Of a DNA stretch of 64,000 bases, positions 18,680 through 46,436 are shown in pieces. The position numbers and the translations under genes were made by a program. Each line of letters opens with the position of its first letter. Positions within the stretch are counted from its first letter, which is position 1. Below the pieces are notes generated by a model. That model was not told the origin of the DNA. It ran no database searches and saw nothing but the letters and a program-made list of their open reading frames with translations. The DNA is from Vibrio sp. JC009 (GTDB lineage: Bacteria; Pseudomonadota; Gammaproteobacteria; Enterobacterales; Vibrionaceae): contig NZ_CP092106.1 of assembly GCF_029016485.1 (NCBI RefSeq), forward strand, positions 744,001 through 808,000, read 5' to 3'.

Positions 18680-18764
18680 TGGTGCGGAAGGAGAGACTTG
18701 AACTCTCACACCTTGCGGCGCCAGAACCTAAATCTGGTGCGTCTACCAATTCCGCCACTTCCGC
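18680..18764 (-). tRNA. tRNA-Leu (UAG)
   Basis: 85 nt including CCA. The anticodon stem CCAGA/TCTGG encloses TTTAGGT (anticodon TAG). A long variable arm is present, and the body closely resembles E. coli leuW. It is the last gene of the array. Confidence 0.97.
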
Positions 18765-18816
18765 ATCAATTTTGTAGCTGATTGAGTAATTGGAGAACTC
18801 AAAAAGCGTTGTGTAA

Positions 18817-18891
18817 TGGCAGGGCTACCTGGATTCGAACCAGGGAATGACGGGATCAAAACCCGTTGCCTTACCGCTTGGCGATAGCCCT
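18817..18891 (-). tRNA. tRNA-Gln (UUG)
   Basis: 75 nt including CCA. The acceptor is AGGGCTA/TAGCCCT, and the anticodon stem ACGGG/CCCGT encloses TTTTGAT (anticodon TTG). Confidence 0.97.
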
Positions 18892-18921
18892 ACAGAAATG
18901 TTCAGTGAACATTCTAAATAA

Positions 18922-19006
18922 TGGTGCGGAAGGAGAGACTTGAACTCTCACACCTTGCGGCGCCAGAACCTAAATCTGGTGCGTCTACCAATTCCGCCAC
19001 TTCCGC
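18922..19006 (-). tRNA. tRNA-Leu (UAG)
   Basis: 85 nt including CCA, identical in body to the other four Leu copies. Its flanks match those of the copies at 19347 and 19458, which points to segmental duplication. Confidence 0.97.
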
Positions 19007-19064
19007 GTCTCAAATTTTCTACAGGTTTATCAGCCAATTGGTAAAAGCTAATAAACAATGTTAA

Positions 19065-19141
19065 TGGTGGCTACGACGGGATTCGAACCTGTGACCCCAT
19101 CATTATGAGTGATGTGCTCTAACCAACTGAGCTACGTAGCC
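19065..19141 (-). tRNA. tRNA-Met (CAU, elongator)
   Basis: 77 nt including CCA. The body begins GGCTACGTAGCTCAG as in E. coli metT, and the anticodon loop TCATAAT reads CAT. It lacks initiator tRNA features. Confidence 0.97.
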
Positions 19142-19149
19142 AACTCTGT

Positions 19150-19180
19150 GGCCCTGGGTTATTAGCCCCTGGGTCCTGGG
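19150..19180. repeat. GGCCCTGGG-type repeat fragment
   Basis: A short piece of the GC-rich palindromic family (GGCCCTGGG, then GGGTCCTGGG) lies in a spacer between tRNA genes. Confidence 0.6.
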
Positions 19181-19206
19181 AATAAAAGCTAATGCATTTT
19201 ATTCTC

Positions 19207-19235
19207 TGATAGCTGACAGCTAAAAACTGAAAGCT
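19207..19235. repeat. Dispersed TGATAGCTGACAGCT repeat, copy 2
   Basis: Identical in sequence to copy 1 at 18643-18671. It sits directly downstream (in transcription) of a tRNA-Gln gene. Confidence 0.8.
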
Positions 19236-19241
19236 TGAAAA

Positions 19242-19316
19242 TGGCAGGGCTACCTGGATTCGAACCAGGGGATGACGGGATCAAAACCCGTTGCCTTACC
19301 GCTTGGCGATAGCCCT
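19242..19316 (-). tRNA. tRNA-Gln (UUG)
   Basis: 75 nt including CCA. It differs from the 18817 copy by one base next to the T arm. The spacer to the following Leu gene is nearly identical in both copies. Confidence 0.97.
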
Positions 19317-19346
19317 GCAGATATGTTCAATGAACAATCTAAATAA

Positions 19347-19431
19347 TGGTGCGGAAGGAGAGACTTGAACTCTCACACCTTGCGGCGCCAGAACCTAAAT
19401 CTGGTGCGTCTACCAATTCCGCCACTTCCGC
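19347..19431 (-). tRNA. tRNA-Leu (UAG)
   Basis: 85 nt including CCA, with the same body as the other Leu copies. Confidence 0.97.
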
Positions 19432-19457
19432 AAAATTTGTTTGTAGATGATTTGAGA

Positions 19458-19542
19458 TGGTGCGGAAGGAGAGACTTGAACTCTCACACCTTGCGGCGCC
19501 AGAACCTAAATCTGGTGCGTCTACCAATTCCGCCACTTCCGC
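19458..19542 (-). tRNA. tRNA-Leu (UAG)
   Basis: 85 nt including CCA. Only 26 bases separate it from the neighbouring Leu gene. Its upstream spacer (about 58 nt) matches that of the 18922 copy. Confidence 0.97.
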
Positions 19543-19600
19543 GTCTCAAATTTTCTACAGGTTTATCAGCTAATTGGTAAAAGCTAATAAACGAAATAAA

Positions 19601-19677
19601 TGGTGGCTACGACGGGATTCGAACCTGTGACCCCATCATTATGAGTGATGTGCTCTAACCAGCTGAGCTACGTAGCC
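19601..19677 (-). tRNA. tRNA-Met (CAU, elongator)
   Basis: 77 nt including CCA. It differs from the 19065 copy by one base in the D loop. Confidence 0.97.
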
Positions 19678-19785
19678 ATTCCGTTTGGGCGAAGTAATAT
19701 AATATAAACTTCATCCGATGAACAGTACTAATTTGTACATATTCAAAAAATAATGACAATTAAATTTAACAGCCATTATAAATAA

Positions 19786-19860
19786 TGGCAGGGCTACCTG
19801 GATTCGAACCAGGGAATGACGGGATCAAAACCCGTTGCCTTACCGCTTGGCGATAGCCCT
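19786..19860 (-). tRNA. tRNA-Gln (UUG)
   Basis: 75 nt including CCA, with the same sequence as the 18817 copy. Confidence 0.97.
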
Positions 19861-19867
19861 ACAAGTT

Positions 19868-19899
19868 GGGTCCTGGGTTATTAGGCCCTGGGCCCTGGG
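19868..19899. repeat. GGCCCTGGG-type repeat fragment
   Basis: GGGTCCTGGG and GGCCCTGGGCCCTGGG lie in a spacer between tRNA-Gln and tRNA-Leu. Confidence 0.6.
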
Positions 19900-19924
19900 A
19901 AGAAAATTAAAATTTTCATTCCTC

Positions 19925-19953
19925 TGATAGCTGACAGCTAAAAACTGAAAGCT
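19925..19953. repeat. Dispersed TGATAGCTGACAGCT repeat, copy 3
   Basis: Same sequence as copies 1 and 2. As in copy 1, it is followed within 10 bases by a tRNA-Leu gene. Confidence 0.8.
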
Positions 19954-19961
19954 AATAAAAA

Positions 19962-20046
19962 TGGTGCGGAAGGAGAGACTTGAACTCTCACACCTTGCGG
20001 CGCCAGAACCTAAATCTGGTGCGTCTACCAATTCCGCCACTTCCGC
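19962..20046 (-). tRNA. tRNA-Leu (UAG)
   Basis: 85 nt including CCA, with the same body as the other Leu copies. Confidence 0.97.
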
Positions 20047-20085
20047 ATTATTTCCTGAAAACTCTTATAAAAAGCTTTTAGGAAA

Positions 20086-20162
20086 TGGTGGCTACGACGG
20101 GATTCGAACCTGTGACCCCATCATTATGAGTGATGTGCTCTAACCAACTGAGCTACGTAGCC
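20086..20162 (-). tRNA. tRNA-Met (CAU, elongator), first gene of the array
   Basis: 77 nt including CCA. It is promoter-proximal: the array promoter lies about 60 bases upstream. Confidence 0.97.
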
Positions 20163-22787: not shown

Positions 22788-23810
22788 ATGAACAAGAATA
22801 TCACTATTTCTATCGACCTTGCTAAGACTGTTATTCAAGTTGCGATAATTAATAAGCACGGAAAGCTTTCATCTAATCAAAAAGTATCTCAATCAAAGTT
22901 AATTTCAATGGTGGCTAAGCACCCCAAAGCTGTTATTTGTATGGAAGCTTGTGCAACGGCTCATTATTGGGGTCGAAAGTTCCAGCAGGCAGGACATCAA
23001 GTCTTACTCGTGCCTGCTCAGATCGCCGCTAAGTATCGCTCGGGAAATAAAAATGATCCCAATGATGCTTTGGCTATTTATGAAGCCAGTCAGCGGACAG
23101 ATATTCATTTCGTTCCGGTTAAAACTGTTGAACAGCAAGATCTTGCCTGCTTACTAAGACTGCGGGAAGGTTATATTAAGCAACGAACACAGCTTGCTAA
23201 CCGTATCCGGGGGCTTGCGATGGAATATGGCATCAAATTTCCCATAGGAATCAATTCGCTCAGAAAACAGCTACCGTTTGAGTTGGAAAATGCTGAAAAT
23301 GAATTAACCCATGCTGCTCGGTTTATTCTAAATAATCTTAAAGAACAGTTGCTCGCGCTTGATACCCAAATTGATGATGCCACTCAAGCTCTTACCAATC
23401 AGGCAAAACAAAATGAAGATTGTAAGCTTTTAGCCTCGTTACCGGGTATTTCATGGATTTCAGGCAGTGCTTTGTATGCCAGGTTAGGAAATGCATCGGC
23501 TTATAAGTGTGGTAGGGATGCAAGCGCAAGCATTGGATTAGTGCCTGCTCATACAGGAAGTGGAGGTAGAAATATCAACCTTGGCATTACTAAGCGAGGA
23601 GATCGTTATCTCAGAGCTCTTGTCGTTCATGGTGCCCGAGCTGTAGTTAGTCATGTCAAAGATAAAACTGATCCACTTAGTCAGTGGATACGCTCTCTGT
23701 TAGAGAGAAACCATGTGAATAAAGTCGTTATTGCTCTAGCGAATAAGATAGTCAGGATGGCGTGTGCCATATTGAAATCAAAACAGCCTTACCAGCTTAA
23801 GTTAGCTTAA
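22788..23810 (+). CDS. IS110-family transposase, IS1111 type (element 1)
   Basis: This DEDD-type recombinase has 340 residues. The N-terminal RuvC-like domain carries D10 (ISIDLAK), E53 (ICMEACATAHYW) and D90/D93 (KNDPNDALAI). The C-terminal Tnp20 domain contains LASLPGISWISGSAL and the serine-bearing SIGLVPAHTGSGG. IS110 enzymes recombine the circular element with its target under guidance of an element-encoded RNA. GGAG lies 9 bases before the ATG. The frame is intact with all catalytic residues, so it is probably active. The four acidic residues fall at the same positions in element 2's protein. Confidence 0.95.
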   Translation: MNKNITISIDLAKTVIQVAIINKHGKLSSNQKVSQSKLISMVAKHPKAVICMEACATAHYWGRKFQQAGHQVLLVPAQIAAKYRSGNKNDPNDALAIYEASQRTDIHFVPVKTVEQQDLACLLRLREGYIKQRTQLANRIRGLAMEYGIKFPIGINSLRKQLPFELENAENELTHAARFILNNLKEQLLALDTQIDDATQALTNQAKQNEDCKLLASLPGISWISGSALYARLGNASAYKCGRDASASIGLVPAHTGSGGRNINLGITKRGDRYLRALVVHGARAVVSHVKDKTDPLSQWIRSLLERNHVNKVVIALANKIVRMACAILKSKQPYQLKLA

Positions 23811-44950: not shown

Positions 44951-44965
44951 TCTCGTTCCCATGCT
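44951..44965. repeat. REP-like palindrome, left part of the copy split by IS element 2
   Basis: TCTCGTTCCCATGCT is continued after the IS by CTCCAGCGTGGGAATGCATA (from 46292). Rejoined, the two halves form the same palindrome as the intact copy at 22588. Confidence 0.85.
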
Positions 44966-44980
44966 TATATGGACTCCCGG

Positions 44981-45183
44981 GTGTTGTCAAAAAGTTTATT
45001 AGAACAGAGGTCAGATGCTTGCTTATATACGGGCTCTAACTGAGGAGCTACCTCGGCCTCTTCGATGTATTCGCACCTTCATGACTTTATCTCCCGCACG
45101 GTAGTTTCTACCTGAGCATGGGCCAGTCTCTTGAAGGTTGGTCTTACCTGTTTGTTCTTACGTTCTTTTTGACTAACCTGGTA
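44981..45183 (-). ncRNA. Candidate bridge/seek RNA of IS element 2
   Basis: Read on the minus strand, the first stem-loop (45075-45138) has outer stem ACCTTCA/TGAAGGT and inner hairpin GGTAG-AAA-CTACC. Its 5' internal strand contains CCCATGCTC (45114-45122), complementary to GAGCATGGG at the target junction. Its 3' strand contains GCGGGAG, 6 of 7 identical to GCTGGAG on the left target side. The second has inner hairpin GAGG-TAGCT-CCTC. On its 5' side ATACATC (45064-45070) complements the left end GATGTAT, and on its 3' side ATATAAG equals the right end plus junction. The architecture matches the candidate RNA of element 1, including the TAGC loop. Confidence 0.78.
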
Positions 45184-46221
45184 TTAAGCCACAAGTGGTT
45201 GTGGCTTATATTCCTCATCACTTTTTATCATGGCAAGAGCCGTTCTCACCGTTTTATTTGCCAAAGCAATAGCTGCAACTTTTTTGCCTCGCCTTGTGGT
45301 CAGATCTTTAAGCCATTGCTCTTTTCCTGTCCGGGCTTCTCGTTTTTCCAGTTTACACACAACTGTTAAGGCTCCTCGAAAGAGTGCACTACGCAACATG
45401 TTGTGACCACACTTTTTAGCGATAGAACCTATTTTCTGTTTACCACCACTACTGTGTTGAACGGGTGTTAACCCCAGACAAGCTGAAGCTTCTCTACCCT
45501 TACTAAAATGCTCTGCCTGGCCTAACGCTACTTTTAATAAAACTGAGCATACTGGGCCAACCCCCTCCAGAGCTTGTAACCGCCTGCACACTTTATCTTG
45601 CGCTATTGACTGCTGTAGTTGTTGTGTAAAAGCTTCTACTTGCTCTATCAAATTTATAAACTGCTCATACATCTGACTCAGGCAAGCTCTAAACTGGCCG
45701 GTTAATCCGTTATCAGCGTCCTCAAGAACATAAGGAATGGCTTCTCTCAATGCTTTATCACCTTTAGTGATCGGAATGCCAAACTCCAGTAAATAGGAAC
45801 GCAGTTGATTACTTATACTTACCTTCTGCCTAACCAGTAGATCTCGCATATGAACGATGGATTGCTGACACTGCTCTTCAACGGTTGGTATGCGACAGGA
45901 TTTTATTTGAGATTGCGTAGCTGCGATAGCAATGGCAATAGCGTCATTGGCATCGGTTTTTTGGCCCTGCCTGAATGCAGCTGCCCGACGTGGGGCAATA
46001 GCCTTCACTTCATGCCCTTGCTCTTTAGCATATCGAGCCCAATAGTTGGTTGTACTGCATGACTCCATTGCTACCAGTGTTGCTTTTTCCCTGGCTAAAA
46101 ATTCCAGCAGTTTCTTACGGCTCATTTCTCGATTAAAAATAATCTTGCCATCGAAATTCATCTTACAGACCTGAAAAACACTCTTTGCAAGGTCAATAGC
46201 AATAACGGTAGAATATTTCAT
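45184..46221 (-). CDS. IS110-family transposase, IS1111 type (element 2)
   Basis: This DEDD recombinase has 345 residues. D10 (VIAIDLAKS), E53 (LVAMESCSTTNYW) and D90/D93 (QKTDANDAIAIA) lie at the same positions as in element 1's protein. The C-terminal Tnp20 domain contains LQALEGVGPVCSVLL and LGLTPVQHSSGGKQ with the expected serine. It is intact and probably active. Overall similarity to element 1's transposase is limited outside the motifs, so these are two distinct IS species of one group. Confidence 0.95.
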   Translation of the reverse strand: MKYSTVIAIDLAKSVFQVCKMNFDGKIIFNREMSRKKLLEFLAREKATLVAMESCSTTNYWARYAKEQGHEVKAIAPRRAAAFRQGQKTDANDAIAIAIAATQSQIKSCRIPTVEEQCQQSIVHMRDLLVRQKVSISNQLRSYLLEFGIPITKGDKALREAIPYVLEDADNGLTGQFRACLSQMYEQFINLIEQVEAFTQQLQQSIAQDKVCRRLQALEGVGPVCSVLLKVALGQAEHFSKGREASACLGLTPVQHSSGGKQKIGSIAKKCGHNMLRSALFRGALTVVCKLEKREARTGKEQWLKDLTTRRGKKVAAIALANKTVRTALAMIKSDEEYKPQPLVA

Positions 46222-46291
46222 GTATGGACTCCTTTTGTAAAAGTTTGGTCGCTTATTACGCTACTCCTGAGGGAGCCGGGAGTCCATACAT

Positions 46292-46436
46292 CTCCAGCGT
46301 GGGAATGCATACCACGGCTGGAGGTATTCTCGTAAACCACTAAAAGTAGAGAAAATAAGTCCAGTGGCAGTTTATACTCTGGCTGGTAGTTTTGAGTCTG
46401 ACATGCATTCCCACGGAGGACCATGGGAACGAGTGG
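46292..46436. repeat. REP-like pair: right part of the split copy and an intact inverted copy
   Basis: The right half of the split palindrome (46292-46312, CTCCAGCGTGGGAATGCATA) is followed about 90 bp later by an inverted copy (46402-46436, ACATGCATTCCCACGGAGG then CCATGGGAACGAG). The same inverted-pair layout, with similar spacing, occurs around IS element 1. The rest of the gap to the fur terminator (46437-46583) shows nothing recognisable. Confidence 0.8.

Follow-up and report, generated by a model that had tools for sequence, protein, structure and literature searches.

The question raised by this locus is how an insertion sequence finds one and the same point in a REP, and whether an RNA encoded in its own non-coding DNA reads that point and the ends of the element as well. 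The window, by which we mean the whole stretch of 64,000 nucleotides of Vibrio sp. JC009 analysed here, contains two elements of this kind, referred to as element 1 and element 2 (Table 1). RNA-guided target reading by IS1111 elements was published in 2024 under the names seekRNA and bridge RNA (PMC11187229, PMC11208160), and element 2 belongs to the IS1111 group of the IS110 family by every feature that can be tested. Specifically, both domains of its transposase (PF01548, the DEDD domain, and PF02371) exceed curated cut-offs; its translation reads GLTPVQHSSG at the GL-P----SG motif, described as GL-P----S(T)G for the C-terminal domain of IS1111 transposases in PMC11187229; and about 220 bp of non-coding DNA lie downstream of the gene as against 70 bp upstream. 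In size, too, its 345-aa transposase and 13-bp subterminal repeats fall in the ranges that characterise the group (about 330–350 aa and 7–17 bp). Alignment of the transposase with the solved chains of ISCro4 and IS621 is confined to residues about 213–335. The host genome (5.2 Mb, three contigs) holds nine copies of element 2 with zero internal differences, and this provides a natural multi-copy example in which one RNA faces many intact targets, and which allows guide, target and ends to be read off with no experiment needed.

Table 1. Positions in the window of element 2, its interrupted REP and the parts of its predicted RNA, with element 1.
Feature	Position	Strand	Remark
Element 2, complete IS1111-type insertion sequence, 1328 bp	44964..46291	-	one of nine internally identical genome copies
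Transposase/recombinase gene, 345 aa	45184..46221	-	PF01548 (1e-16), PF02371 (4e-16)
Left half of interrupted REP, ATGCATTCCCACGCTGGAG	46292..46310	-	
Right half of interrupted REP, CATGGGAACGAG	44952..44963	-	
Left subterminal inverted repeat TATGGACTCCCGG, 13 bp	46276..46288	-	100% complementary to right repeat
Right subterminal inverted repeat CCGGGAGTCCATA, 13 bp	44968..44980	-	inverted-repeat pair just inside element 2 ends
Core dinucleotide AG, right end of element 2	44964..44965	-	occupied and intact REP sites compared
TTGACA close to right end of element 2	44985..44990	-	junction sequence
Non-coding stretch 3′ of transposase gene	44981..45183	-	predicted guide RNA source
Target-loop outer stem, 5′ arm ACCTTCA	45132..45138	-	outer stem: 5/6 tested pairs change both sides in relatives
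Right-target and core guide CCCATGCTC	45114..45122	-	complement of GAGCATGGG, 9/9
Hairpin GGTAG-AAA-CTACC between the two target guides	45100..45112	-	
Left-target and core guide GCGGGAG	45091..45097	-	against GCNGGAG; 6/7 here
Target-loop outer stem, 3′ arm TGAAGGT	45075..45081	-	
Left-end guide ATACATC	45064..45070	-	complement of GATGTAT, 7/7
Donor-loop hairpin GAGG-TAGCT-CCTC	45042..45054	-	4/4 pairs change both sides; 89.6% of cells paired
Right-end and core guide ATATAAG	45022..45028	-	7/7
Element 1, second IS1111-type element	22788-23810	+	16 copies, L119-L134

All nine copies of element 2 interrupt a REP at one point, with the junctions GGAG/ATGTATGG ... CCATATAAG/CATGGGAACGAG. GCNGGAG stands to the left of the element in eight of them; the ninth (L009) has GGAGGAG, and there the left guide fits at only 5 of 7 positions. 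The empty site, GCNGGAG^CATGGG, is seen in intact REPs of the host genome, where the 18-base pattern CGCNGGAGCATGGGAACG has 24 exact intact-REP matches and the reversed control pattern has none. Comparison of occupied and intact REPs in this same genome shows that insertion of element 2 leaves no target duplication. The dinucleotide AG, which acts as the core of the insertion, is common to the right end of the element and the left half of the target (46292-46293), and because it belongs to both, the exact point of exchange can be placed no more finely than this dinucleotide. Intact REPs elsewhere in the host genome served for the empty-site comparison; no same-site empty locus lacking element 2 was found among 41 genomes, 30 of them with matches, and these matches, own genome aside, either run no further than the end of the glnS coding part (query positions 1 to about 311) or are short repeats. 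Downstream of glnS, the segment 44764-44960 matches about a dozen places in the same genome (70–92% identity) and, in pieces, other genomes; this is another repeat family beyond REP, with an inverted repeat at 44757-44775/44870-44888. Likewise, 46293-46433 holds an inverted pair of REP-like units (TCCAGCGTGGGAATGCAT / ATGCATTCCCACGGAGGA), the outer of which is the one interrupted by element 2.

It is informative to examine which REPs are occupied in light of those that are available. By hand count, the intact REPs of the host genome comprise 31 of the variant GCNGGAGCATGGG (CAT), 34 of GCNGGAGCGTGGG (CGT) and 13 of CGGAGGACCATGGG. Element 2 lies in the GAG^CATGGG variant in nine of nine copies (Fisher p 0.003 against the availability of the CGT variant, 31 CAT to 34 CGT). 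Element 1 was found in GGAG+CATGGG REPs in only 3 of its 16 copies and in other variants in 13, and the two elements differ in their use of the CAT variant (Fisher p 1.1e-4); two of these three CAT-variant REPs also contain element 2. All 16 copies of element 1 follow TATGC inside the REP, about 14–15 bp further left than the insertion point of element 2 (GGTATG/CA/TTCCC), and the CAT/CGT position is not read by element 1, whose RNA fits its right target at 8/8 and its left target at 5/8. The preference for the CAT variant fits the guide of element 2, which spells CAT, and the presence of two element families at neighbouring REP points, one of them choosing among letter variants, amounts to a natural test of specificity. 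At two loci (L006 and L008, the same as L134 and L129), element 2 lies in a REP whose left side already holds element 1, such that one REP is shared by two mobile elements at neighbouring points; as a targeting rule this stacking concerns only two of nine copies, a small number.

The first-pass annotation, made from the letters of this stretch, had described on the minus strand an outer stem enclosing two target guides, and a second loop matching the ends of the element. The strings it named are all present, and CCCATGCTC complements GAGCATGGG, which spans the junction, at every letter. Its figure of 6 of 7 for GCGGGAG against the left target GCTGGAG is correct, and in the second loop ATACATC complements the left end GATGTAT while ATATAAG equals the right end plus junction, both at 7 of 7. 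When the 201-nt stretch was subjected to 100000 mononucleotide shuffles, the 9-mer recurred in 0.026%, ATACATC in 1.6%, ATATAAG in 2.6% and both 7-mers together in 0.04%; all three matches occurred in none. A search of Rfam at gathering score returned nothing within the non-coding stretch, and the 12 matches in the window are all tRNA. Elsewhere in the window, eleven tRNA genes in repeated units occupy about 1.5 kb of the minus strand (18683-20162).

Evidence for the fold comes from comparison among relatives. Taken by itself, the RNA of element 2 has ordinary stability (z -1.43; 21 of 200 shuffles equally stable), and its minimum-energy fold recovers the outer stem and both the guide and TAGC hairpins but lacks the second-loop base. 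RNAalifold on the 25-row alignment returned only a few pairs, since there is no fold in the guides and the second-loop base is misaligned. The named stems were counted directly in the alignment, the base stem GGC/GCC of the second loop being left out: standard pairs fill 82.9% of cells in the 25 relatives against 66.1% in shuffled alignments, and 14 of 18 named-stem pairs change on both sides. The covariation score of these stems is 0.443 against 0.167 (sd 0.017) in shuffled data, none of 500 reaching it, and sliding the stem columns by 1–3 lowered the score every time. The closing GCG/CGC of the second loop is nearly invariant, so covariation tests it weakly.

If the RNA reads its target, guide letters and target letters should change together. 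Relatives were drawn from 196 genomes of the same genus, 89 of which matched with an E value of at most 1e-30, and 90 loci were taken, namely the best 30 and 60 places chosen by hand among the matches listed. From 142 loci, 23 with REP matches only and no transposase hit were dropped, as were 8 of 119 that had no repeats under the set rule (L030, L056, L057, L059, L087, L091, L094 and L098); removal of near-identical RNAs left 25 elements in the element-2 clade. A contig pattern scan with the element 2 transposase gave seven stretches and no confirmed relative. Across the 25 elements, and in permutations that take relatedness as it comes, each guide matches its own site better than those of other elements: the right-target guide scores 6.80/8 (permuted 4.51) and the left-target guide 6.08/7 (4.29), neither value being reached in 20000 permutations, and the left-end guide scores 6.04/7 (5.30; 1 of 20000) and the right-end guide 6.56/7 (5.72; 0 of 20000). 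The guides occupy one place in the aligned RNA, and pairs such as AGTGCGGA with CTCCGCACTA (L033), AACGAGTA with TACTCGTT (L042) and CGAAGTAG with CTACTTCG (L045) serve as examples of the matches. End letters change too: ACATAAG replaces ATATAAG, the guide following, in L034, L037, L041, L060 and L061.

The same holds when insertions are counted one by one and when the other clade is examined. Among 48 insertions of the element-2 clade (excluding L043, for which the wrong right repeat was picked, and the re-fetched copies L029, L125, L129 and L134), the right-target guide fits at 8/8 in 21, nine of which are the host's own copies, at 7 in 12, at 6 in 10 and at 5 in 5; the left guide fits at 7/7 in 16, at 6 in 19, at 5 in 11 and at 4 in 2. 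A right-target fit of 7 or 8 of 8 is thereby found in 33 of 48 insertions, or in 24 of 39 when the nine own copies are set aside, as against 2.6% of 2140 cross-pairings with the targets of other elements that reach 7 or more. For 24 non-redundant elements of the element-1-like clade, whose guides were searched across the whole stretch, the own and permuted scores, again with relatedness uncontrolled, are 7.21 and 5.94 (right target), 6.00 and 5.27 (left target), 6.42 and 6.01 (left end) and 6.79 and 6.20 (right end), with 0, 0, 2 and 0 of 20000 permutations reaching the own score. Within narrower groups, the right-target permutation gives 0 of 20000 in the closely related 12-member GGAATCC subfamily, where the end guides are invariant; the 9-member GATAATT group gives 1 of 20000 for the right target and 560 of 20000 for the right end. 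With 1383 and 2097 of 20000, the TAACAAG set of five members reaches significance in neither test.

These comparisons bear out what had been claimed for the locus before any relatives were compared. Relatives with changed guide letters do sit at correspondingly changed targets, and where one RNA is found at several targets these are similar and not unrelated (L046/47/66/67; L069-71). The idea that the RNA of element 2 guides the element to its own target is supported by the sequence tests and by the position of all nine copies in REPs of the variant spelled out in the guide. Furthermore, the proposal that element 1 shares the layout holds throughout its 24-element clade, with right-target, left-target, left-end and right-end guides in that order. 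Elements 1 and 2 are alike in guide order, in the hairpin with a TAGC loop, in their TGGACTCCC repeats and in the use of a REP as target; they differ in guide letters and in the left end, which is one base longer in element 1. Some GGAATCC-repeat relatives depart from the pattern at the core. In L044, L046, L047, L049-L054 and L065-L074 the left junction ends in TG, and at the right junction the dinucleotide that follows TATA varies between copies (CG, TG and AG in L051, L072 and L073, which have one RNA); both junctions of L045, L048 and L055 read CG. The strict shared core seems to be relaxed in the TG-junction relatives.

Eight plasmid loci, chosen from 30 listed rows among at least 5000 records, were scored later under a rule fixed beforehand. 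Their right-target fit is 8/8 in L155, L157, L158 and L160, 7/8 in L161 and L162 and 5/8 in L156 and L159, and the left target fits at 6 or 7 of 7 in all eight; L160 is not independent because its RNA is nearly equal to that of L048, already used, and a score of 7/8 is not unusual for L161 or L162 taken singly (shuffle fractions 0.08 and 0.14). The right end fits at 7/7 in seven and at 6/7 in L158, the left end at 7/7 in two, 6/7 in four and 5/7 in two. The clearest changed ends among these loci are those of Rahnella L161, with left end ATGTTAT, guide ATAACAT and a changed right end ATATATG, and of Rhizobium L162, where the right end ACACACG is met by the guide ACACACG. The two poor right-target fits are both from Pseudoalteromonas, and the best 5/8 of L156 lies off the guide position. 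L156 (Pseudoalteromonas sp. HL-AS1 plasmid) has the target-guide letters of L155, which fits its own site at 8/8 and 7/7, and the misfit is a possible off-target insertion or a possible later change.

The reading that we regard as very probable makes element 2 an insertion sequence of the IS1111 group with a two-loop bridge/seek RNA that reads both its REP target and its own ends. The stretch 3′ of the transposase gene would produce this RNA. Its first loop would pair with both strands of the REP, CCCATG-CT with the top and GCGGG-AG with the bottom, sharing the core AG/CT, and its second loop would pair with the two strands of the joined ends, ATACATC with the left and ATATAAG with the right. 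The DEDD recombinase would hold the two DNAs side by side and exchange them at the core, and the circular element would thus be inserted at one fixed REP point, in one orientation and without target duplication. Transcription, binding, circle formation and the chemistry of exchange are inferred here from published systems. In a circle with abutted ends, TTGACA would lie 17 bp from a TAAGAT that spans the junction, a possible circle promoter.

In an AT-rich spacer single 7-mers do arise by chance, as the shuffles show. Nonetheless, the joint absence of the three exact matches from every shuffle, the permutations in two clades and the eight loci scored later make chance an exceedingly improbable source of the guides of element 2; for the family as a whole, the permutation tests in both clades refute it. 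A different account would have the non-coding stretch carry accidental REP fragments, from a captured flank or an old insertion, with the protein reading the fold of the REP. Both elements of the host genome do lie in REPs, but relatives at quite different targets carry guides for those targets, the guides stand at one place in the aligned RNA, and the nine copies prefer one letter variant over a similarly abundant one; we hold this account to be very improbable.

Support for the second loop bears on a point left open between the two 2024 descriptions of IS1111 elements, namely whether RNA or protein recognises the ends. The first loop might pick the target while the protein recognises the subterminal repeats and the end extensions, the second loop serving as a scaffold that resembles the ends for some other reason, such as a motif for protein binding common to RNA and DNA. 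An 82-nt seekRNA with only the described target matches sufficed for movement of ISEc11, in work whose account leaves end recognition open (PMC11187229), and conservation is much higher in the ends than in the targets, which makes the second-loop signal the weaker one; given that seekRNA, some members may do without the second loop. However, the second-loop letters track both strands as a donor loop needs, antisense to the left end on one side of the loop and sense to the right end on the other, and they change with the ends in the ACATAAG set, in Rahnella and in Rhizobium; donor-binding nucleotides are predicted for IS1111 members in PMC11208160 as well. We consider a purely target-reading RNA unlikely. 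Beyond element 2, it is probable that IS1111-group RNAs are true bridge RNAs, in which target and own ends are both read by base pairing and both sites should be open to re-programming, and that a REP is divided between two co-resident elements, each of which reads its own point. Were this so, the seekRNA picture of a guide for the target only would be incomplete for the IS1111 group.

The predicted bridge RNA of element 2 can be set beside the published ones. Titles and the openings of abstracts yielded no report of a donor-loop covariation test in IS1111 elements, or of element 2 in Vibrio, in a search that had most subscription journals and bioRxiv outside its range. A bridge RNA was predicted in 93.0% of IS1111 elements (PMC11208160), and donor pairing was inspected there by hand in six elements, three per group; the second loop with its end matches, which had been put forward as a prediction made by manual inspection, now has comparative evidence behind it in the element-2 clade. 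PMC11208160 predicts for many IS1111 members that the donor nucleotides lie in a multi-loop, whereas in element 2 they fit an internal loop closed by the short, weakly tested GCG/CGC stem.

According to PMC11187229, IS1111 elements have a downstream RNA in which the top-strand match lies 5′ of the bottom-strand match, their seekRNAs of about 80 and 150 nt are bound by the transposase, and ISPa11 uses a REP of P. aeruginosa. Element 2 resembles the elements described there (ISEc11, ISKpn4, ISPa11 and ISPst6) in its DEDD transposase, its subterminal repeats and its long downstream non-coding stretch, and in the placement of the top-strand match, here CCCATGCTC, 5′ of the bottom-strand match, GCGGGAG. 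It differs from them in the REP and insertion point used and in that an end-matching second loop is also seen; production of the RNA was demonstrated for those elements, and for element 2 it is predicted from sequence. The bridge RNA of IS621, of the IS110 group (PMC11208160), likewise devotes one loop to the strand pair of the target and another to that of the donor. It is unlike that of element 2 in that it is encoded upstream of the gene, in an element that has subterminal repeats of only 2–3 bp and whose orientation with respect to the guides is reversed. In both, the guides overlap on a core dinucleotide, which is CT in IS621 and AG, or CT on the other strand, in element 2.
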